From the NCBI RefSeq assembly GCF_000799075.1, contig NZ_JTLI01000041.1, forward strand, positions 1 to 32,569: a stretch of DNA of 32,569 bases, in the 5' to 3' direction. Source of the DNA: Cetobacterium sp. ZOR0034 (GTDB taxonomy: Bacteria > Fusobacteriota > Fusobacteriia > Fusobacteriales > Fusobacteriaceae). The position numbers and the translations under genes are program-made. Below the pieces are notes generated by a model. The model was not told the origin of the DNA, did not search any database, and saw nothing but the letters and a program-made list of their open reading frames with translations. Numbering within the stretch: the first letter of the stretch is position 1; each line of letters begins with the position of its first letter. Below, piece by piece: positions 5,332 through 23,216 of the stretch.

Positions 5332-6582
5332 ATAACTATAGCAAAAAATTATGATTCAGACTTTTCATTTGGAGCAGTAGCAGAGAGTGATAAAAGAGGG
5401 CTACTTTCAATGTTTGTAATAATGTTAGGATTTACATTCTTTTCGGCAAGTATGTGGACAGGGGGTACATTAGGAATAGGACTTACAGGAGCAGAGTTCA
5501 TACTAGCAGTACTTTTAGGAAATTTAATTCTTGGAATTTTCACTGGAGCTTTAGCTCACATTGGTGCAAAGACAGGGTTATCTACACATCTTTTAGCTAA
5601 ATACTCTTTTGGAGAGAAAGGATCATATTTAGGTTCGTTCTTACTAGCTTTAACACAAGTTGGATGGTTTGGTGTAGGAGTAGCGATGTTTGCTATACCT
5701 GTAAATAAAGTAACAGGAATAGATATGAAGCTTTTAGTTGCTGTATCGGGAGTATTGATGACATTCACAGCGTACTTTGGAATTAAGGCTGTTACAATTC
5801 TATCAGCAATTGCAGTACCAAGTATAGCAGTTTTAGGTGGAACTTCAGTAGTAAGTGCCATAAATCATGCTGGTGGATTGAAAGAAGTGATGAATATAGC
5901 TCCGATAAATTCAATAACAGTTATGACTGGAGTTGGAATGTGTATAGGTTCATTTATAAGTGGAGGAAGTTTGACAGCTGACTTTGCAAGATTCTCAAAG
6001 AATAGTAGAGTTGGAGTTATAAGTACACTTGTAGCATTTTTCCTTGGAAACTCTTTAATGTTTATATTCGGGGCTGTTGGAGGAAAAGTTTTCGGAACAG
6101 CGGATATTTCAGAAGTTATGTTCTCACAAGGGATTATAATTCCAGCAATTATCGTTTTAGGATTTAATATCTGGACAACAAATGACAATGCTCTTTACTC
6201 ATCTGGATTAGGATTCTCAAGTATCACAAAGTTACCAAAAAGTAAGATGGTTATGTTAAATGGAGTTTTAGGAACAGCATTTGCACTTCCAATTTATAAT
6301 AACTTTGTAGGATGGTTAAATCTTTTAAATACTCTTCTTCCAGGAATTGGAGCGATTATAATTTGTGATTACTTCTTTGTAAAAAAAGGTGAGTATGATA
6401 AAATAGAGAATATGGAGTTCTTAGGAGTAAATGTGATTGCGATATCAGCTTGGGTTATTGGGATAGCTGCTGCGAAATTTATTCCAGGAATAGCACCTAT
6501 AAACAGTGTTATCTTTACAATGGGAGCTTACTATGTAGGAACTAAAGTGATGGAAACAAAAAGAAGGAGTGAGGCATGTTAA
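5332..6582 (+). CDS. codB: Cytosine permease CodB
   Basis: An NCS1-family cytosine:cation symporter with about 12 TM helices that imports cytosine for CodA. It aligns almost end to end with E. coli CodB as recalled: '[18 protein letters not shown]', '[17 protein letters not shown]', '[17 protein letters not shown]', '[11 protein letters not shown]', '[11 protein letters not shown]'. The start is problematic. The upstream in-frame TTG (5269) lies inside the attenuator hairpin and adds residues homologues lack, and the next ATG (5410) would remove the conserved '[13 protein letters not shown]' lead-in. A strong SD (AAGGAG, 5320-5325) points to about 5332-5340, where only ATA codons (5332, 5338) are in frame, so the start given is provisional. 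It overlaps codA by 7 nt, implying translational coupling. Confidence 0.93.
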
Positions 6583-13177: not shown

Positions 13178-14425
13178 TTAAATTAAAAGAGAACGATATT
13201 TCTCTAGAGCATTATATTGAATCAATCTAATATTTTCATATTTTATTTTTGAATCAGTGAGCATCTCTTGAGATTTTAGAAAATCTAATATAGTAATCAT
13301 TCCTTTTTGAAATTTTAAAGTATCTTTTTTATAGTTTTCATTAGCTTGTTCAAATGCTTTTGAGTATGCAATCTCAAGTTTATTTAATCGTATTAACTCT
13401 AGATAAGCTTTTTTTAGATTTATTTCGATATTATTATGAGTAATTTTTTCTTGTGATTTGGAATTTTCGACATTTAATTTACTCGCTTCATAGTTATCAT
13501 AATCTTTTCCAAATTGAAATATATTCCAACTAACAAGGACTCCTCCTCCCCATGAATTTTCTGTTCGATGGTCTTCAGTAACATATTCTTTACCAATAAA
13601 TCCTTTTACTTGAGGTAACATTTCAGCTCTTGCAATCATTTTTTCGACATCAGCTTCTTGAATGTGAAGTTTCGCAAAATTAGCTGCTATTCCATTATTT
13701 AGTGCTTCATCTAAATCAATATTATAATTAATTGAATCGATAGCCTCTCTGTAAACATAGAAATTTTCTATATCAATCTCCTCAGACGATGAAAAATTAA
13801 GTTTTTGTTTTAAAGTTAAAAGACCAATTTCTATTTCGTTTTGAATATTTAAAATAGAGGTTTCAATATCTAGAAGCTGGTACTCAGCTTTTAGTAGTTC
13901 TACATTTGTTATTTTTCCAAGACGTTCATTTTCTTTAGCAAAATTTAAAGCTTCATTTAGTTGCATTTTAGATGTGTTATAGACTTCGAGAGTATTTTTA
14001 GCTAAAATAATCCCAGTATATATAGATATAACTTCAAGTCTTGTATCTCTTGTTTGTTTTAAAAGAGCCAGAGTATTTTTTTGTTCTTCTATTTTCGCTT
14101 TTTTAACTTTAGCAGCAATAGAACCGCCTTGAAATATCGGTTGAGATATTCCAAGAAAATTTATATAGCCACTCTTGGCTGTTTGGATAGGAGTATTTTC
14201 TAAAAAAGCGCCATCTGTTTTTAAATATCCTCCGGTATAAAAAATGTTAGGTAGAGCTGTTTTAAATGCAGAGTTTAACTGTTTTTTTGAAATAATTAAC
14301 TCCCTATTAGCTATATTATTTTCCTCTCCATTTTGAATAGCCAAATCGATGGCTTCATTGATTGTTATAACTCTAGCAAATAGAGAGAATGAAATAGTAA
14401 AAATCATAAAAATTCTTAGTTTCAT
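13178..14425 (-). CDS. TolC-family outer-membrane efflux protein
   Basis: 415 aa. A signal peptide (about 1-17) is followed by two repeated helical-hairpin halves characteristic of OEP/TolC: 'ITINEAIDLAIQNG' opens the first and 'IDLDEALNNGIAANF' the second. Strand-like segments such as 'YINFLGISQPIFQGGS' and 'GGGVLVSWNIFQFGKDYDNY' insert in the outer membrane. It forms the trimeric exit duct of the tripartite system encoded directly upstream. The gene lies 19 nt after the permease and is the last of the operon. Confirmation that it serves this ABC pump rests on gene order. Confidence 0.9.
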   Translation of the reverse strand: MKLRIFMIFTISFSLFARVITINEAIDLAIQNGEENNIANRELIISKKQLNSAFKTALPNIFYTGGYLKTDGAFLENTPIQTAKSGYINFLGISQPIFQGGSIAAKVKKAKIEEQKNTLALLKQTRDTRLEVISIYTGIILAKNTLEVYNTSKMQLNEALNFAKENERLGKITNVELLKAEYQLLDIETSILNIQNEIEIGLLTLKQKLNFSSSEEIDIENFYVYREAIDSINYNIDLDEALNNGIAANFAKLHIQEADVEKMIARAEMLPQVKGFIGKEYVTEDHRTENSWGGGVLVSWNIFQFGKDYDNYEASKLNVENSKSQEKITHNNIEINLKKAYLELIRLNKLEIAYSKAFEQANENYKKDTLKFQKGMITILDFLKSQEMLTDSKIKYENIRLIQYNALEKYRSLLI

Positions 14426-14444
14426 AGTTCGTTTCTCCTTCTCT

Positions 14445-15566
14445 TTAATCTAATGTTTTTTTGAACTTTTTAATCGAAACTACAATTATAATAATAATTA
14501 AAGTCATAAGAGCAGCTATAGGATGAAGAAGCTCTCGTATTCCAACACCTTTTAATATGATGCCTCTGAGTATTTCATTAAAATAAGTTAAAGGAATGAA
14601 GCAACTTATAAAATAGATGATTTTAGGCATAGCTTCTCGAGGAAAAACAAACCCCGAAAGAATAACGCTAGGAAGAAGATATGCTAGGGATAAATGCATA
14701 GCTTCAAGTTGAGTATTTGATATTGTAGATATAAATATACCGATGGCTAATGAAGATGTTAAAAATATAGTTCCTAGAAAAATTAAAAGAATTAAACTTC
14801 CTTTTATGTCAACACCAAATATAATTTTCCCAAGAATCAAAGTAACATCTAATTCAAAAAAAGCAATAAAGACATATGGTGCAATTTTTCCGATTACAAG
14901 TTCTAAAGGAGAGATAGGAGTCATGATTAATTGTTCAATAGTCCCTTTCTCTTTTTCTCGAACAATTGAAAAAGCAGTTAACATAATTGTTATATTTTGT
15001 AAAATTAGACCGATAATTCCAGGGATATTAAATTTACTACTCTCTAAAGTTGGATTGTATAAAAGTAGATTATAAGGTTTTATAAGAGTTTCCTTATTTT
15101 TTGAACTATAGTTTGCCAGTTTTAGTTGAGAGTAGTGATTAATAATCTGTGAAGAGTATGATGCTGCAGTTTTAGCTATATATGGATCTGATCCATCTAT
15201 TAGAAATTGAACATCTGTTGACTCTCCTCTTCGTAATTTTTTAGTAAAATAATCGGGAATGATGACGCCTATTTTTGTTCTACCATAATCAAGACTTTTT
15301 TCGACAGCATCCGGAGTATCAACATACTCATATACTTTTAAATAAGTTGAGTTATTCAATTTATTTATAAGTTCTCTACTTTCAATAGTTTTACTTCCAT
15401 CATAAACAGAGAGTTTTAAATTATCAACATCAGAACTTACAGCAAAGCCAAACAGAAGCAAAAGAAAAATGGGTAAAATTAAAGCTATAACTAAACTTGC
15501 ACGATCTCTTTTTATATGGATAATCTCTTTTTTAGCAATAGTTAGAATACGATTTATATTAATCAT
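14445..15566 (-). CDS. ABC-2 type transporter permease (drug efflux type)
   Basis: 373 aa. A first TM helix (about 17-43) is followed by a large extracytoplasmic domain (to about 170) and five C-terminal TM helices. The segment 'IVREKEKGTIEQLIMTPISP' is the conserved coupling region of YhhJ/YbhR/YadH-like exporters. It is the only permease gene, so a homodimer is likely, whereas E. coli YbhFSR has two. ATG 15566 is chosen because GTGGAGG lies between it and the upstream in-frame ATG 15587. It overlaps the ATPase gene by 8 nt. Confidence 0.9.
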   Translation of the reverse strand: MININRILTIAKKEIIHIKRDRASLVIALILPIFLLLLFGFAVSSDVDNLKLSVYDGSKTIESRELINKLNNSTYLKVYEYVDTPDAVEKSLDYGRTKIGVIIPDYFTKKLRRGESTDVQFLIDGSDPYIAKTAASYSSQIINHYSQLKLANYSSKNKETLIKPYNLLLYNPTLESSKFNIPGIIGLILQNITIMLTAFSIVREKEKGTIEQLIMTPISPLELVIGKIAPYVFIAFFELDVTLILGKIIFGVDIKGSLILLIFLGTIFLTSSLAIGIFISTISNTQLEAMHLSLAYLLPSVILSGFVFPREAMPKIIYFISCFIPLTYFNEILRGIILKGVGIRELLHPIAALMTLIIIIIVVSIKKFKKTLD

Positions 15567-16380
15567 TTTTATCCTCCACTTTCTCATCTTTATGCTTTAG
15601 TTGATCAAAAGAGGAGATGACCTCTTTATGAGAGAGTTCTTTAACATAGATAATGAAAATATCTTCAAGATTATCAGTATTATATTTCTTATATAAATTT
15701 TTAGGAGTATCAATAACAACTAGTTTCCCTTCGAAAATAAAGCCAATGATATCACAAACAGAAGCTTCATCCATATAGTGAGTTGTAGCTAGAACAGTAA
15801 TATCTCCATATTTGATAAGATCTTTTATTGTGGTCCAAAACTCTCTTCTTGCAACAGGGTCAACTCCAGCTGTGGGCTCATCAAGAATAAGAAGTTCTGG
15901 TTTATGAATAATAGCACATCCTAGAGCTAATCTTTGTTTCCAACCTCCAGAAAGATTTTTGGATAAGACATCTCTTTTTTCGTTTAGATTTAACATCTTT
16001 ATAACTTCTTCAATTCTTTCGTTTAGATGTTCTTTTGGAATAGAGTAGATTTCTCCATAAAAAATTAGATTTTCCTCAATAGTTAAATCTTCGTAAAGAC
16101 TGAATTTTTGTGACATATACCCAATTTTTGATTTTATTTTTTCAGGATTACTTTTTAAATCGTAGCCTAAAACTTTACCTTCACCAGATGTAGGAGTTAA
16201 TACCCCACAAATCATTCTTATAGTTGTAGATTTTCCACTTCCATTAGGTCCAAGAAATCCAAAAATAACTCCTTTAGGAATATTAAAACTTAAAGAATCA
16301 ACAGCTGTATATTTCTCAAATTTCTTAGTTAAGTTTTTAATTTCTATTGCATATTCACTCTTTAGATTTTCAACACTCAT
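15559..16380 (-). CDS. ABC transporter ATP-binding protein (YbhF-like, single domain)
   Basis: 273 aa. Walker A 'GPNGSGKS' (44-51), Q-loop near 'YMSQKFSLYEDLT', signature 'LSGGWKQ' (143-149), Walker B 'LLILDEP' (163-169) and H-loop His201 are all intact. It is a single NBD, unlike the duplicated NBD of E. coli YbhF, and powers the ABC-2 exporter. It begins with a 4-nt overlap with the adaptor gene (ATGA) and overlaps the permease by 8 nt, so translation of the operon is tightly coupled. Confidence 0.95.
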   Translation of the reverse strand: MSVENLKSEYAIEIKNLTKKFEKYTAVDSLSFNIPKGVIFGFLGPNGSGKSTTIRMICGVLTPTSGEGKVLGYDLKSNPEKIKSKIGYMSQKFSLYEDLTIEENLIFYGEIYSIPKEHLNERIEEVIKMLNLNEKRDVLSKNLSGGWKQRLALGCAIIHKPELLILDEPTAGVDPVARREFWTTIKDLIKYGDITVLATTHYMDEASVCDIIGFIFEGKLVVIDTPKNLYKKYNTDNLEDIFIIYVKELSHKEVISSFDQLKHKDEKVEDKND

Positions 16381-17507
16381 AATCCTAAATCAACTCCTAC
16401 AAGCATTCCACTTTTTAATTTATCATCACCATTCAAAAGTTTAACCTTTAATTCATAAACTAATTTTAAACGGTCTTTTTTTGTAACTATATTCATAGGA
16501 GTAAATTCTGAGTCGGATGATATGTATATAATTTCTCCTGCATATTCTTTATCTATAAAATCGCTATTCAATTTAACTTTTTGCCCTAGTTTTACAGATG
16601 GAAGAAGTTTTTCTGGGATATATATTTTAGTCCAGATATTACTGTTATCAAGCATAGTAATAGCAGCTACACCAGGACTAATAACTTCACCTATTTTTAG
16701 ATTAACAGTTTCTACGATACCGTCAATAGGTGCTACGAGATTGTTTTTTTCAGCATATATCTTAGTCAATTCTAAGTTTTTTTGAGAAGAGGCGATTTTT
16801 AATTTATCTGCCTCAATATCTCTTACAGAAAATCCATTAATCATATATCTAAGATTATCTTCAGCAGAATTTTTTTGTGCATGAAGAGCAACTAAATTTT
16901 GGTTACCATTTTCTAAATTGTTTTGAGCAATAGTAAATTGATTCTGTGCATTTTCAAAATTTAATTTTGCAATGTCAAATGCGTATTGACTTTCAAATTT
17001 TTTTTCAAATAGATCTTTTGTGTCGAAATATATCTTTTTTTTATTTTCGAAATTAGAAATAGCAAATTTATAAGCACTTGTAAGTGCAACTAGGTTTTGT
17101 TTTCCTTGATTAACTTGACTTTCTAATTGTTTAACAATCTCTTTTTGTGAAGAGATTTGCTCTTCCCGAGTGCCATCTAATGTTTTCTGAAGTTGATTTT
17201 CAGAAGATTTTACAGAGATTTCACTATTTTCAATCTTCAATTTATTTTCTTTGTCATTTATAGAGATTAGTTTTTGTTCTTTTTTTACAAATTCACCATC
17301 TTTGACATAAACTGTTTCGATTTTTCCAAGTAGCTCTGAAGAGATGTTTAGTTTGTCAACCTCTAAAACTCCATAGTATATTTTATCCTCTTTTTTACTG
17401 AGAATATAATCTCCAATAAAATAGAAAATAAGAGTTAGTATTCCTACTCCAAATAGATATTTTACATCTATTTTTTTGAATCGTTGTAAAAGTTTAATCG
17501 CATTCAT
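16377..17507 (-). CDS. HlyD/YbhG-type periplasmic adaptor subunit
   Basis: 376 aa. One N-terminal TM anchor (about 18-34) precedes a split lipoyl/barrel-sandwich domain: first half 'LLGKIETVYVKDGEFVKKEQ', second half 'LVAPIDGIVETVNLKIGEVI'. The halves flank a long alpha-helical coiled coil (about 80-245) rich in Gln/Asn/Lys. A beta-barrel domain follows. It bridges the inner-membrane exporter and the TolC-like duct. It is first in the four-gene operon adaptor-ATPase-permease-TolC. No regulator is adjacent. Confidence 0.92.
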   Translation of the reverse strand: MNAIKLLQRFKKIDVKYLFGVGILTLIFYFIGDYILSKKEDKIYYGVLEVDKLNISSELLGKIETVYVKDGEFVKKEQKLISINDKENKLKIENSEISVKSSENQLQKTLDGTREEQISSQKEIVKQLESQVNQGKQNLVALTSAYKFAISNFENKKKIYFDTKDLFEKKFESQYAFDIAKLNFENAQNQFTIAQNNLENGNQNLVALHAQKNSAEDNLRYMINGFSVRDIEADKLKIASSQKNLELTKIYAEKNNLVAPIDGIVETVNLKIGEVISPGVAAITMLDNSNIWTKIYIPEKLLPSVKLGQKVKLNSDFIDKEYAGEIIYISSDSEFTPMNIVTKKDRLKLVYELKVKLLNGDDKLKSGMLVGVDLGL

Positions 17508-17662: not shown

Positions 17663-19000
17663 CTATCCAATTCCTCCATAGAAGATTCCCAAGATATAAA
17701 CTGCAATTGCAATACCACAGAAGAAATATTTTGTAACAGGTTCAAACCATGCACCGATTATTTTATCTCTTCCTATTTGGGCTTGCTCTCTTGCAAAACC
17801 TGGATTACAAATCCAGTAGATAACGATTCCTGCAAGAAGGGCTCCTAAAGGGATAACATAGATTGAAACAAAGTCCATCCAAGGTGAAAGATGATCCCCA
17901 TGTAAGAAAACTCCGACAACAAATGCAATAATCGCAACAATAGAGATTGAATTTCTTCTAGATAATCCAACTTTGTTTTGTAAGGCTTCTATGGGAGTTT
18001 CAAAAAGATTCATAAGTGATGTTACTCCTGCAAATAGAACAGCTATAAAAAATATGATGGCAATTAGTTGTCCACCAGGCATATTTTGAAAAACCATAGG
18101 TAATGTTACAAACATAAGTCCAGGACCAGCCCCAGGCTCTAATCCGAAAGCAAATACTGCAGGGATAACTACAAGAGCTGCTAGCATAGCAGCACAAGTA
18201 TCAAAAAATGAAACATTTAAAGCTGAGTTTACAATATCTTCATTCTTACTTAAATAGCTTCCATAAACTACAGTACCAGATCCAGCAAGAGAAAGGGAGA
18301 AGAACGCTTGTCCTAGAGCAAAAATCCAAGTTCTTATCTCTAAAAGAGCTGACCACTCAGGCTTAAAAAGATAAGCATAACCGGCTTCAGAACCAGGTAA
18401 TGAGTATATTTTAAATGCTAAAAATATAAATAGAAAAAAGAAAGCAGGCATTAAAATTTTATTAACTTTTTCAATACCGCCAGCAATCCCCATAGACATT
18501 AAAAAAAATGTAATTGCTAAACCAGCTATATGCCAAGGGATACTTCCAAAATCAGAAGCTAACATACCAAAATATGGTCCAGCTTCAACATTTATTAAAG
18601 TTCCTGAAATAGATGAAATACAATATCTCAATATCCATCCAACTACAACGGCGTATCCGATAGCTATAGCCAATGAACCAATAACAGGTATAAATCCAAT
18701 AATAGTTCCACCTTTTAATCCTCTTTGTTTGAAAGCTTTTTCAAAAGCTCCAAGAGGTCCAGTTTCCATAGAACGTCCAAGTGTCATCTCGCCAATAACT
18801 CCAGAAAATCCAATTAAAAGAACAAATGTAAAATACGGAATAAGAAAAGCTGCTCCTCCAAACTGTCCAACTCTATATGGAAACATCCAAATATTTCCCA
18901 TTCCAACTGCTGAACCAATACAAGCTAAAATAAATCCAAATTTTGAATTAAAACCATCTCGATTATTTTCATCTATTAAAACCGTTTTTACATCATTCAT
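17663..19000 (-). CDS. Na+-dependent amino-acid transporter (NSS/SNF family), probable Trp importer
   Basis: 445 aa, about 11 TM helices with the LeuT fold. The NSS signature in TM1 is 'GSAVGMGNIWMFPYRVGQFG', with the unwound Na+/substrate site, and TM6 contains 'ALGQAFFSLSLAGSG'. The length and 11-helix layout match bacterial MhsT/TnaT-like NSS members. It lies 25 nt downstream of tryptophanase in the same operon, which makes tryptophan (or another aromatic/hydrophobic amino acid) the likely substrate, imported with Na+. Substrate assignment is inference from context. Confidence 0.92.
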   Translation of the reverse strand: MNDVKTVLIDENNRDGFNSKFGFILACIGSAVGMGNIWMFPYRVGQFGGAAFLIPYFTFVLLIGFSGVIGEMTLGRSMETGPLGAFEKAFKQRGLKGGTIIGFIPVIGSLAIAIGYAVVVGWILRYCISSISGTLINVEAGPYFGMLASDFGSIPWHIAGLAITFFLMSMGIAGGIEKVNKILMPAFFFLFIFLAFKIYSLPGSEAGYAYLFKPEWSALLEIRTWIFALGQAFFSLSLAGSGTVVYGSYLSKNEDIVNSALNVSFFDTCAAMLAALVVIPAVFAFGLEPGAGPGLMFVTLPMVFQNMPGGQLIAIIFFIAVLFAGVTSLMNLFETPIEALQNKVGLSRRNSISIVAIIAFVVGVFLHGDHLSPWMDFVSIYVIPLGALLAGIVIYWICNPGFAREQAQIGRDKIIGAWFEPVTKYFFCGIAIAVYILGIFYGGIG

Positions 19001-20423: not shown

Positions 20424-20429
20424 AAAAAT

Positions 20430-20478
20430 CCCTCCGTTTTTAGTCTACCCCGGTCATCTTTTCAGATAGGCGGACGGT
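20430..20478 (-). promoter_or_regulatory. GC-rich structured 5' leader of tnaA (candidate RNA switch)
   Basis: In the about 86-nt leader, 20478-20440 is strikingly GC-rich against its surroundings. On the minus strand it has a GAAA-capped hairpin (ATCT-GAAA-AGAT, 20469-20458), GUC/GAC and CC/GG pairings around it, and CCGT (20477-20474), which can pair with ACGG (20437-20434). That last pairing overlaps the first two bases of the SD GGAGGG (20435-20430). It could control translation by exposing or hiding the SD. No riboswitch class was recognised. Confidence 0.45.
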
Positions 20479-20515
20479 ATTTCCTTAATTAGAATTTTTT
20501 CAATTCCAATATAAC

Positions 20516-20544
20516 TATATACTTCATGATATTTGCTTTGTCAA
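20516..20544 (-). promoter_or_regulatory. Promoter of tnaA operon
   Basis: On the minus strand TTGACA (20544-20539), a 17-bp spacer and TATATA (20521-20516). Predicted start is near 20509, giving an about 86-nt leader. Confidence 0.75.
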
Positions 20545-20637: not shown

Positions 20638-22131
20638 ATGAAAAAAATATTAGTTATTACATTAACATTGATTTTGACATTATTGGGAGGATGTGAGGAG
20701 AAAAAAATCGAAAAAAAAGATAAACTTACTTTTGCGCAGTTGAGTGATCCGAAAACATTGGATCCACAAAATTCAACAGATAATTATTCTCAGATAGCCA
20801 TAACTCAGATATATGATAGATTATTTGAAATAGATGAAAAAACAGGAACTCCAATTCCTAGTTTGGTTGAAAGCTATGAGAGAGTAAACGATAAAATATT
20901 AGATATTAAATTAAAAAAAGATGTAAGATTTACAAATGGAGATGTTTTAACTTCTGAAGATGTAAAGTTTACAATAGAAAGAGCAAAAGCTAATCCAAAA
21001 GTATCTCATCTTTATAAAATGATAAATAATATTGTTATACTATCAGATAACGAGTTTCAAATAATAACTGAACAGGCATTTTCACCTTTATTAAATCATT
21101 TAAGTCACAAATCTTCATCAGTTATAAATAAAAAAGAGGTTCTAAAAGATGAAAGTAAGTATTTTGAAAACCCAATAGCAACAGGGCCTTATAAAGTTGA
21201 AAGTTGGGCAATAGGAGATAATATCACTTTATCATCAAATCAAAATTACTATAAAGGAATTCCAAGTATAAAAACTGTAGTTATAAAAGCTGTTCCGGAA
21301 GAAAATAGTAGGGTAATAGGACTGGAAACAGGAGAGATAGATATGTCTTTAGATATTCCTGCAATCTCTTGGAATGATTTAGAAAAGGATGGAAAGATTA
21401 GAGTATATTCAGCCCCTTCAACTACAACTGGATATATAGGATTGAACACAAATTCTTCTATACTATCAAATAAAATTTTAAGACAAGCTATTGCTTTAGC
21501 AATTGATAAACAAAGTATAGTTGATACTATATATTTAGGAAAAACAAAAGTGGCTAATCAATTTTTAGCTCCTCCAGTTTTTGGATATAATCAAAAAGAG
21601 AGTGATGGAGAGTTTAATCCAGAGAAAGCAAGAAAAATATTAGAGGATAATGATTTAATAGGAACTAAACTTAAAATTGCTGTAAGTAGTCCGGAAAGAG
21701 TTCAAGTAGCAACAATAATTCAAGATCAATTGAAAAAAATAGGGATAAATTTAGAAATAGAATTATTAGAATGGGGAGCTTTTTTATCACAAACAGGATC
21801 TGGAAATACAGATATGTTTATAATGGGATGGGGACCATCAACTTATGATGCAGATTACGGATATTACCCTAATATTCACAGTAGTCAATTAGGAAGTAAT
21901 GGAAATAGAACTTTTTATTCAAATTTAAAAGTGGATGAGTTATTAGAGATGGCAAGAAAAGAGAGTGACAATGAAAAAAGAAAAGGGTATTATATAGCTA
22001 TCCAAAAAATATTAAATGATGAAGTTCCATTAATACCACTATATCATGGAAATGTTGTTTATGGAGCGAGTACATCTCTAAAAAATGTTTCAGCAACAGG
22101 ATATCCAGAGTTTTATAAATATGAGTTTTGA
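20638..22131 (+). CDS. Family-5 (oligopeptide/nickel-type) ABC substrate-binding lipoprotein, copy 1
   Basis: 497 aa. The lipoprotein signal has lipobox LGGC with Cys19. The SBP_bac_5 fold follows: 'FAQLSDPKTLDPQNSTDNYS', 'IYDRLFEID', 'DVLTSEDVKFTIERA', 'GPYKVESW', 'LETGEIDM', 'RQAIALAIDKQSIVD'. It should bind peptides or a similar ligand in the periplasm for an ABC importer. No permease or ATPase genes are nearby, so it must dock to a transporter encoded elsewhere. It lies 20 nt upstream of an M42 peptidase gene. It is paralogous to the lipoprotein at 28791-30311 (shared 'AIDKQSIVD..YLGK..VAN' and 'IPLYYKN/IPLYHGN' blocks). Confidence 0.92.
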   Translation: MKKILVITLTLILTLLGGCEEKKIEKKDKLTFAQLSDPKTLDPQNSTDNYSQIAITQIYDRLFEIDEKTGTPIPSLVESYERVNDKILDIKLKKDVRFTNGDVLTSEDVKFTIERAKANPKVSHLYKMINNIVILSDNEFQIITEQAFSPLLNHLSHKSSSVINKKEVLKDESKYFENPIATGPYKVESWAIGDNITLSSNQNYYKGIPSIKTVVIKAVPEENSRVIGLETGEIDMSLDIPAISWNDLEKDGKIRVYSAPSTTTGYIGLNTNSSILSNKILRQAIALAIDKQSIVDTIYLGKTKVANQFLAPPVFGYNQKESDGEFNPEKARKILEDNDLIGTKLKIAVSSPERVQVATIIQDQLKKIGINLEIELLEWGAFLSQTGSGNTDMFIMGWGPSTYDADYGYYPNIHSSQLGSNGNRTFYSNLKVDELLEMARKESDNEKRKGYYIAIQKILNDEVPLIPLYHGNVVYGASTSLKNVSATGYPEFYKYEF

Positions 22132-22151
22132 ATTTAAGGGGAGTGAAAAAA

Positions 22152-23216
22152 ATGAACAAGATTAAATTACTAGAAGAATTATCAAATTTACATGGTGCAC
22201 CAGGACATGAACATGATGTTGTAGAGTTTATAAAGAAACAAATGAAAGGTTTTAATTGTAAAAGAGATTCTATAAACAATCTATATATTCAAACTGAGAA
22301 TCAAGGGGATTCAAAACCAGTTGTTGCTTTAGATTGCCACAGTGATGAGGTTGGATTCATTGTGGAGGGAATTAAATCTAATGGAACACTAAGTTTTTTA
22401 CCATTAGGAGGTTGGCATATAGCAAATATTCCAGCTCATTCAGTAGTTATAAAAAACTTCAAAGGTGAATATATAAGAGGGGTTGTTTCATCAAAACCAC
22501 CTCACTTTATGACGGCAGAAGAGAAAGCTAGATTACCTAAAATAGATGAATTAGTAATAGATATAGGAACAAGTTCGTATGAAGAAACAATAAGTTTATA
22601 CGGAATTGAAGTTGGAAACCCTATAACACCGGATGTACAGTTTTCTTATGATGAGAAAATAGATGTTGTAAGAGGAAAAGCTTTCGACAATAGAGTTGGA
22701 TGTGCAATTGTAATGGAGATATTAAAAGAAGTAAAAGATTGTAAATTAGATGTGATTCCGATTGGAGTTATAAGTTCTCAGGAAGAGATTGGATTAAGAG
22801 GGGCACAAGTAGCTGCGAATACAATAAAACCAGATTTTGCAATTATATTTGAAGGATCTCCAGCAGATGATACATTTAAAGATAGTTTCTTATCTAAAGG
22901 AGCGATAGGAAAAGGAGTTCAATTTAGAGTTTTAGATGCAGGAATGGTTTCTAATCCTAGAATTCAAGAGTTTGTAAAAACAATAGCTACTGAAAATAAC
23001 ATAAAATATCAAGTTATAGCAAGAAGTGGTGGAAGTACAAATGGTGGAAAATATCATGTAGCTGAAAAGAGCATTCCAACTGTTGTTATAGGAATACCAA
23101 CAAGATATATACATACTCACTATACTTATGCTTCTGCTAAGGATTATAGAGATGCGATTGTTTTAGGAAGAAAAATATTAGAAAATTTAACGAATGAAGT
23201 AATAAAAACCTTTTAA
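22152..23216 (+). CDS. M42-family metalloaminopeptidase, copy 1
   Basis: 354 aa, cytoplasmic, no signal peptide. The M42 di-metal site is readable: H63/D65 ('DCHSDEVGF'), bridging D179 ('AFDNRVG'), general base/ligand E211-E212 ('SSQEEIGLRG'), an acidic ligand in 'FEGSPADD' and the C-terminal His in 'YIHTHYTY' (H321/H323). Family members form dodecameric tetrahedral shells that trim short peptides. ATG 22152 is chosen because AAGGGGAG precedes it; the TTG at 22128 lies inside the upstream gene. Operonic with a peptide-binding lipoprotein, suggesting that it processes imported peptides. Confidence 0.92.
   Translation: MNKIKLLEELSNLHGAPGHEHDVVEFIKKQMKGFNCKRDSINNLYIQTENQGDSKPVVALDCHSDEVGFIVEGIKSNGTLSFLPLGGWHIANIPAHSVVIKNFKGEYIRGVVSSKPPHFMTAEEKARLPKIDELVIDIGTSSYEETISLYGIEVGNPITPDVQFSYDEKIDVVRGKAFDNRVGCAIVMEILKEVKDCKLDVIPIGVISSQEEIGLRGAQVAANTIKPDFAIIFEGSPADDTFKDSFLSKGAIGKGVQFRVLDAGMVSNPRIQEFVKTIATENNIKYQVIARSGGSTNGGKYHVAEKSIPTVVIGIPTRYIHTHYTYASAKDYRDAIVLGRKILENLTNEVIKTF

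Follow-up and report, generated by a model that had tools for sequence, protein, structure and literature searches.

A conserved RNA motif in the tnaA leader of Cetobacterium sp. ZOR0034 as a candidate L-tryptophan riboswitch

The tnaA locus and its leader

The window analysed in this study is a stretch of 32,569 nucleotides (nt) of contig NZ_JTLI01000041.1 from Cetobacterium sp. ZOR0034. On its minus strand lies tnaA, the gene for tryptophanase, preceded by an 86-nt leader (20424-20509) that is the subject of this report. The tnaA open reading frame (ORF) scored 714 bits against PRK13238 (cut-off 285), and its product is 95% identical to the tryptophanases of four other genomes of the same genus. 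A sodium-dependent transporter gene of the NSS family follows, and the two genes likely form one operon. As judged by sequence comparison, the leader almost certainly contains a conserved RNA element linked to tryptophanase genes. The parts of this element and the features around it are listed in Table 1.

Table 1. Features of the tnaA locus and of the RNA motif in its leader
Feature	Position	Strand	Basis or remark
Sodium-dependent NSS-family transporter, tnaT-like	17663..19000	-	NCBIfam NF037979; 25 bases past tnaA
tnaA, tryptophanase, 465 aa	19026..20423	-	NCBIfam PRK13238
Shine-Dalgarno GGAGG	20431..20435	-	Predicted alternative fold: sequestered by P1 5' strand (20483-20471)
Riboswitch-like aptamer (tnaA RNA motif)	20440..20484	-	cmsearch with model R2
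P1 3' strand CGGGGUA	20446..20452	-	
Core loop 3' side GAC	20453..20455	-	A and C kept in 86/86 distinct sequences
P2 hairpin AUCU-GAAA-AGAU	20456..20467	-	P2 pairs covary
Core loop 5' side, CCU in window	20468..20470	-	CYA in most relatives
P1 inner 5' strand CCG	20471..20473	-	Pairs with CGG 20452-20450
Bulged G-U	20474..20475	-	G kept in 85/86 distinct sequences
P1 outer 5' strand UACC	20476..20479	-	Pairs with GGUA 20449-20446; A-U/G-U/G-C covariation, column pair 7-53
Putative promoter TTGACA (20544-20539), 17-base spacer, TATATA (20521-20516)	20516..20544	-	Read by eye

The first-pass annotation of this DNA had drawn attention to a GC-rich island in the AT-rich leader, and the composition bears this out: GC content is 0.50 in the 40 bases 20440-20479 versus 0.05-0.25 in the upstream intergenic DNA. 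The GAAA-capped hairpin (AUCU-GAAA-AGAU) and the CCGU/ACGG pairing that includes part of the Shine-Dalgarno sequence (SD) are also present as it had written them. The folding energy of the leader did not stand out (z -1.39, with 20 of 200 shuffles reaching a fold as stable or more so), and folding energy alone was discarded as evidence of structure because it was not significant. The above-chance status of the leader is instead a matter of comparison, that is, of the conserved core, the covariation and the gene association described below. The leader end at 20509 is about where transcription from the promoter read by eye would begin, and a similar promoter-like arrangement was found upstream of loci L003-L008. 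A consensus promoter scan, whose rule requires T at position 6, did not list the TTGACA-17-TATATA arrangement.

Rfam 15 gave no match at gathering level in the window or in six other motif loci, and only unrelated matches at E<=10. The Rfam comparison proposed in the first-pass annotation therefore placed the leader in no known family. Its further suggestion of Na+ as a ligand gained nothing from the data. A Na+ riboswitch (DUF1646) was considered and rejected, since there was no Rfam match and the literature passages retrieved on it carry no link to tna; nothing that we found points to Na+.

In E. coli, the textbook control of tnaA is TnaC attenuation, by which tryptophanase is turned on at high tryptophan (Trp). 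The same direction of control is predicted here. TnaC, however, acts as a Trp-containing nascent peptide, and the present leaders showed no sign of one. As the first-pass annotation had stated, no ORF with a Trp codon was seen in the window leader, and short ORFs with an SD and a Trp codon occurred in 4 of 115 homologous leaders compared with 2.9 expected from shuffles, which is no enrichment. A scan of the window leader alone found no terminator-like site. In spite of the E. coli precedent, these results leave hardly any probability to a TnaC-type leader peptide or another form of attenuation.

Architecture and spread of the motif

The consensus of the motif is YACYGUCCGCYA-(hairpin)-RACCGGGGUA. 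Its layout begins with helix P1, which has a G-U bulge, and goes on through three pairs to a 3x3 core of C-Y-A and R-A-C and a variable hairpin P2. Covariation was scored on alignment A5, which comprises 27 sequences and was made with MAFFT without use of the structure. Both-side changes occurred in 7 of 13 pairs, and 95.4% of the 351 cells were paired. The covariation score was 0.319 versus 0.195 in shuffled alignments, none of 500 shuffles reached 0.319, and slid controls were all far lower. RNAalifold independently yielded the same helices, namely P1 (UACY/GGUA), the G-U bulge, CCG/CGG, the 3x3 core and P2. Covariance model R2 gave the window copy 50.7 bits (E 1.4e-13), this copy being among the 27 rows from which R2 was built. 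The first-pass annotation had proposed a selected structured RNA and had named a lack of covariation among tnaA leaders as the outcome that would speak against it. In this study, we found covariation, together with a conserved core and a tie to tryptophanase.

At the core, the series C16-G45, U16-G45 and U16-A45 was seen, which suggests one additional pair (16-45) inside it. Over 86 distinct sequences, A46, C47, C48, G14, G50 and G52 were invariant and G10 varied once. This bears on the idea of a constitutive structure that tunes translation without sensing, which would suit the z-score of only -1.39, weak hairpins around SDs being common. A passive hairpin has no need of unpaired core letters that are near-invariant over 86 distinct sequences, and two mutually exclusive folds are predicted for the leader; we regard such a structure as extremely improbable. 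A very compact form of the motif, with a GAAA loop and only a few bases between P1 and the SD, was observed in L334 and L335.

The distribution of the motif was followed by several searches. A TnaA search covered 100 related genomes, and 30 loci (L002-L031) were examined out of more matches; the motif was upstream of the TnaA-family gene in 15 of these 30 (L002-L016). A first covariance model, built from eight sequences, found the motif in 19 of the 98 Fusobacteriota genomes on which it was run. All 19 matches precede tryptophanase genes, 15 of the short type, which are those of L002-L016, and 4 of the long type (about 550 aa), and in genome G041 the motif was also upstream of a second long-type gene. 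A degenerate pattern was then run on 84,980 species genomes (genome_contigs) and gave 108 places, more divergent members being missed because it had been drawn up from members in Fusobacteriota. At 102 of the 108 places the motif was upstream of a tryptophanase gene (95 long type, 7 short type). At the others, 3 genes were truncated at the locus edge (two begin like a 550-aa tryptophanase), 1 was an NSS transporter gene and 2 were unrelated, L194 and L203 being counted as such. The motif thus precedes two tryptophanase subfamilies that are about 35% identical to each other. The nearest solved relatives of the two types, PDB 8sij and 8sl7, are both named tryptophanase.

By record title, the pattern places belong mostly to Oscillospiraceae, Agathobaculum, Butyricicoccus, Lachnospiraceae, Peptoniphilaceae and Fusobacteriaceae, with one Megamonas and one Zophobihabitans. 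Among phyla, the motif lies upstream of tnaA in Fusobacteriota and Bacillota, and it does so in one gammaproteobacterium as well. Searches with R2 used strict filters, and their counts refer to all genomes searched, with or without tnaA. In the classes of the Anaerotruncus, Megamonas and Zophobihabitans hits, at least 9 of 391, at least 2 of 150 and at least 2 of 274 genomes were matched; in the orders of the Peptoniphilus, Anaerotruncus and Lachnoanaerobaculum hits, the numbers were at least 18 of 199, at least 11 of 295 and at least 3 of 295. Model-search matches with E<1e-5 were all at tna loci except L345 (E 4.5e-6). From their surroundings, L345 and the weak matches L310, L311, L319, L320 and L323 were judged to be due to chance.

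The typical gene order is ridA, motif, tnaA and Na+-dependent transporter. Of the 108 loci, 51 have a same-strand ridA hit upstream, and of the 55 motif loci with enough sequence, 48 have an NSS or permease hit no more than 1.5 kb downstream of tnaA. The genes served by the motif are therefore ones of tryptophan breakdown and, judged by family, of its uptake. The proteins encoded downstream of the motif, where long enough, contain SELGD/AELGD/CDIGS, and MERG, which we take to be the signature of tyrosine phenol-lyase, was present in none. The genome of strain ZOR0034 has a second TnaA-family gene (L282, contig C14, 75048-76394), which bears MERG, and the motif was not found upstream of this tyrosine phenol-lyase-like paralog. 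In Megamonas (L179; 3488 and 3990), the motif stands before ridA and again before tnaA, there with a degenerate P1 (GGAGUG). In L188 (1886-1958, minus strand), it is followed by a short ORF and then an NSS transporter gene, without a tnaA match downstream within the locus. Tandem copies were observed in L174, L314, L316 and L317/L321. Extra upstream copies at 5726 in L221 and at 6190 (minus strand) in L174 are followed by T-rich runs, and the aptamer may work there through a terminator.

Putative ligand and predicted Shine-Dalgarno switching

Majerfeld and Yarus (2005; refined 2010) reportedly selected an L-tryptophan aptamer in vitro, with a site named 'CYA'. Passages of PMC11126579, which credit Blc3 to Majerfeld and Yarus 2005 and to Yang 2013, describe it as a synthetic L-Trp riboswitch with a bulge of unpaired G's, 3 bp, a CCA-GAC loop and a hairpin. 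We found that the trimmed core of Blc3 folds in this way, as G bulge, three pairs, CCA-GAC and hairpin. It shares with the natural motif P1, an unpaired G in the 5' strand, three pairs, and, with CYA/GAC in most natural copies, the CCA/GAC 3x3 loop closed by G-C and the hairpin P2. It differs in being laboratory-selected and in its bulge, which is GGG over A as against G-U in the natural RNA; within the natural motif the Y may be U, the A may be U and the G may be A, and P1 is integrated into the predicted SD switching. A passage of PMC5492135 states that the simplest L-Trp site absolutely requires a G flanking the binding loop, and an unpaired bulged G near the loop was present in 85 of the 86 distinct sequences.

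A descriptor derived from Blc3 was fitted to 117 leaders. The strict form fitted 95, and a relaxed form in which A/U and G/A are allowed fitted 116; when three P2 pairs were also required, the numbers were 69 and 86. Shuffles, which do not make an adequate null where leaders are homologous, gave expectations of 0.55 strict and 3.3 relaxed, and of 0.05 and 0.00 with the P2 pairs. A rough background of 34 strict sites in 2.12 Mb came from at least 120 viral_contigs stretches, drawn with a loose GC-rich pattern and taken to be chance matches, and is biased upward. By a hand estimate, an unrelated conserved two-helix motif would have the Blc3 loop in about 1 in 10,000 cases or less, the likeness having been thought of only after the loop was seen.

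Among the ligands proposed for this leader, tryptophan is favoured by gene context, ON-switch logic and likeness to the laboratory aptamer. A riboswitch of the same structure could respond to a different pathway molecule, namely indole, 2-aminoacrylate/pyruvate, 5-hydroxytryptophan or another indole derivative, or pyridoxal phosphate. The association with tryptophanase, RidA and the transporter would by itself suit any metabolite of the pathway, and RidA acts on the aminoacrylate intermediate. The operon transporter in 48 of 55 loci, the motif before an NSS transporter gene without tnaA in L188, and the match to the L-Trp aptamer nevertheless point to the substrate. A sensor of pyridoxal phosphate would be expected at other enzymes that use it, yet the tyrosine phenol-lyase-like paralog has no motif. 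We consider another ligand unlikely.

In the window, two pairings are open to 5'-GAAAU-A-CC-G-UCCG (from 20483). One, with CGGA-G-GG-AUUUU, covers the SD. In the other, UACC and CCG of the same strand would pair with CGGGGUA to form the aptamer. The predicted probability that the SD is unpaired was 0.86 when the aptamer was forced and 0.20 when it was forbidden. An ON switch is therefore predicted from this rise in SD accessibility. The aptamer state is predicted to be 3.2 kcal/mol less stable, a gap that could be bridged by a ligand. For 117 leaders, which are related and not independent, the corresponding values were 0.34 and 0.13, compared with 0.42 and 0.36 in the linker-shuffled control, and 104 of the 117 changed in the same direction. 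Directly past P1, 65 of the 117 leaders have an anti-SD that forms 6 or more pairs, and 24 have 6 or more pairs between the P1 5' strand and the SD. Both platforms were present in 4 leaders and neither at this cut in 32. The window belongs to the last class because its SD-pairing helix is interrupted. These results predict an expression platform with two exclusive folds, which is clear for the window and not for every leader.

Several points weigh against an aptamer that senses tryptophan and exposes the SD. In addition to the relatedness of the leaders, the linker-shuffled control retains the SD and P1, so that the 5'-strand mechanism is still in it. The predicted change in SD exposure was reversed in several Fusobacteriota leaders (L009, L011, L015, L016, L046, L049 and L050). 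The motif was absent from 15 of the 30 examined TnaA-family loci (L017-L031), including seven leaders (L017-L023) of close TnaA proteins that are 75-79% identical. The window core is CCU and not CYA, which puts it outside the strict Blc3 descriptor and within the relaxed form only; U occupies this third core position in 13 of the 86 distinct sequences. In addition, the lowest-energy fold of the longer Blc3 transcript pairs P1 differently, and only the trimmed core resembles the natural motif.

A Trp-responsive RNA-binding protein that reads the conserved core and controls access to the SD was also weighed. The small, highly conserved stem with an internal loop would suit a protein-binding site, and passages of PMC11109978 raise the same caveat for the candidates of that study. 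Such a site would require one widely shared regulator in Fusobacteriota, Bacillota and an Orbaceae species. Tandem copies (L174, L314, L317/L321) and the match to an aptamer that works free of protein favour direct sensing. Control by such a protein is thus quite improbable.

With these points considered, L-tryptophan as the ligand and the ON logic are well supported, if unproven. Without ligand, the P1 strand or its extension would pair with the SD, and translation would be off. When the aptamer forms, the P1 strand would be consumed, leaving the SD free and translation on, and L-tryptophan would be the molecule that stabilises the aptamer. With plentiful tryptophan, the cell would then make tryptophanase and the Na+-dependent transporter of the same operon. 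Of the first-pass proposal of a riboswitch or translational switch, the predicted sequestration of the SD and tryptophan as one of its candidate ligands have stood, and Na+ has not. It is quite probable that this leader belongs to a riboswitch class, unlisted so far, whose members sense L-tryptophan and turn on the translation of tryptophanase.

Known systems, neighbouring genes and meaning

A previous report described the trpB motif (SRC-39-1) in Firmicutes and Fusobacteria, mostly before ABC transporter genes and sometimes before trpB, with an intrinsic terminator as its second hairpin (NAR 2024; passages of PMC11109978). It has in common with the present motif its occurrence in these two groups and its tie to tryptophan-related genes. 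The two are set apart by that description: the trpB motif has a terminator hairpin, whereas none was found in the window leader, and it lies before ABC transporter genes or trpB, whereas the present motif leads to tryptophanase. According to a passage of PMC7266159, the glycine riboswitch (gcvT) senses the substrate of a breakdown enzyme. ON riboswitches of this type resemble the candidate proposed here in the sensing of such a substrate and in tandem copies, but their aptamer is a different one, and the present motif has no Rfam match. The tryptophan riboswitches in the passages of PMC11126579, PMC7977183 and PMC12566513 are synthetic. No report of a natural one was found in the literature searched, from which subscription papers and preprints were outside, so that a report elsewhere is possible. 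On tnaA control outside bacteria with TnaC, nothing came up in the same literature.

Beyond the tna genes of the window, an export operon occupies 13178-17507 on the minus strand and encodes a TolC-like outer membrane protein, an RbbA-like ABC permease and ATPase, and an HlyD-type adaptor. Divergent from tnaA (20638-23216, plus strand) are genes for a peptide-type ABC substrate-binding protein and an M42-type aminopeptidase. The latter pair could supply peptide-derived tryptophan.

Taken beyond the window, it is reasonably probable that the motif represents an unlisted natural class of L-tryptophan riboswitches in which evolution arrived at a minimal tryptophan-binding site near-identical to that of the 2005 laboratory selection. 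This class would control tnaA in many indole-forming anaerobes of gut and mouth, in single and tandem form and through two or more kinds of SD platform. In the communities of gut and mouth, the indole that tryptophanase makes is a major signal. If the reading is true, a direct sensor of tryptophan in the mRNA would account for tnaA control in many anaerobes, and it would be the first natural tryptophan riboswitch as far as the literature searched reaches. A natural binding site could then be compared with one selected in the test tube, a question already asked in research on how the genetic code arose.
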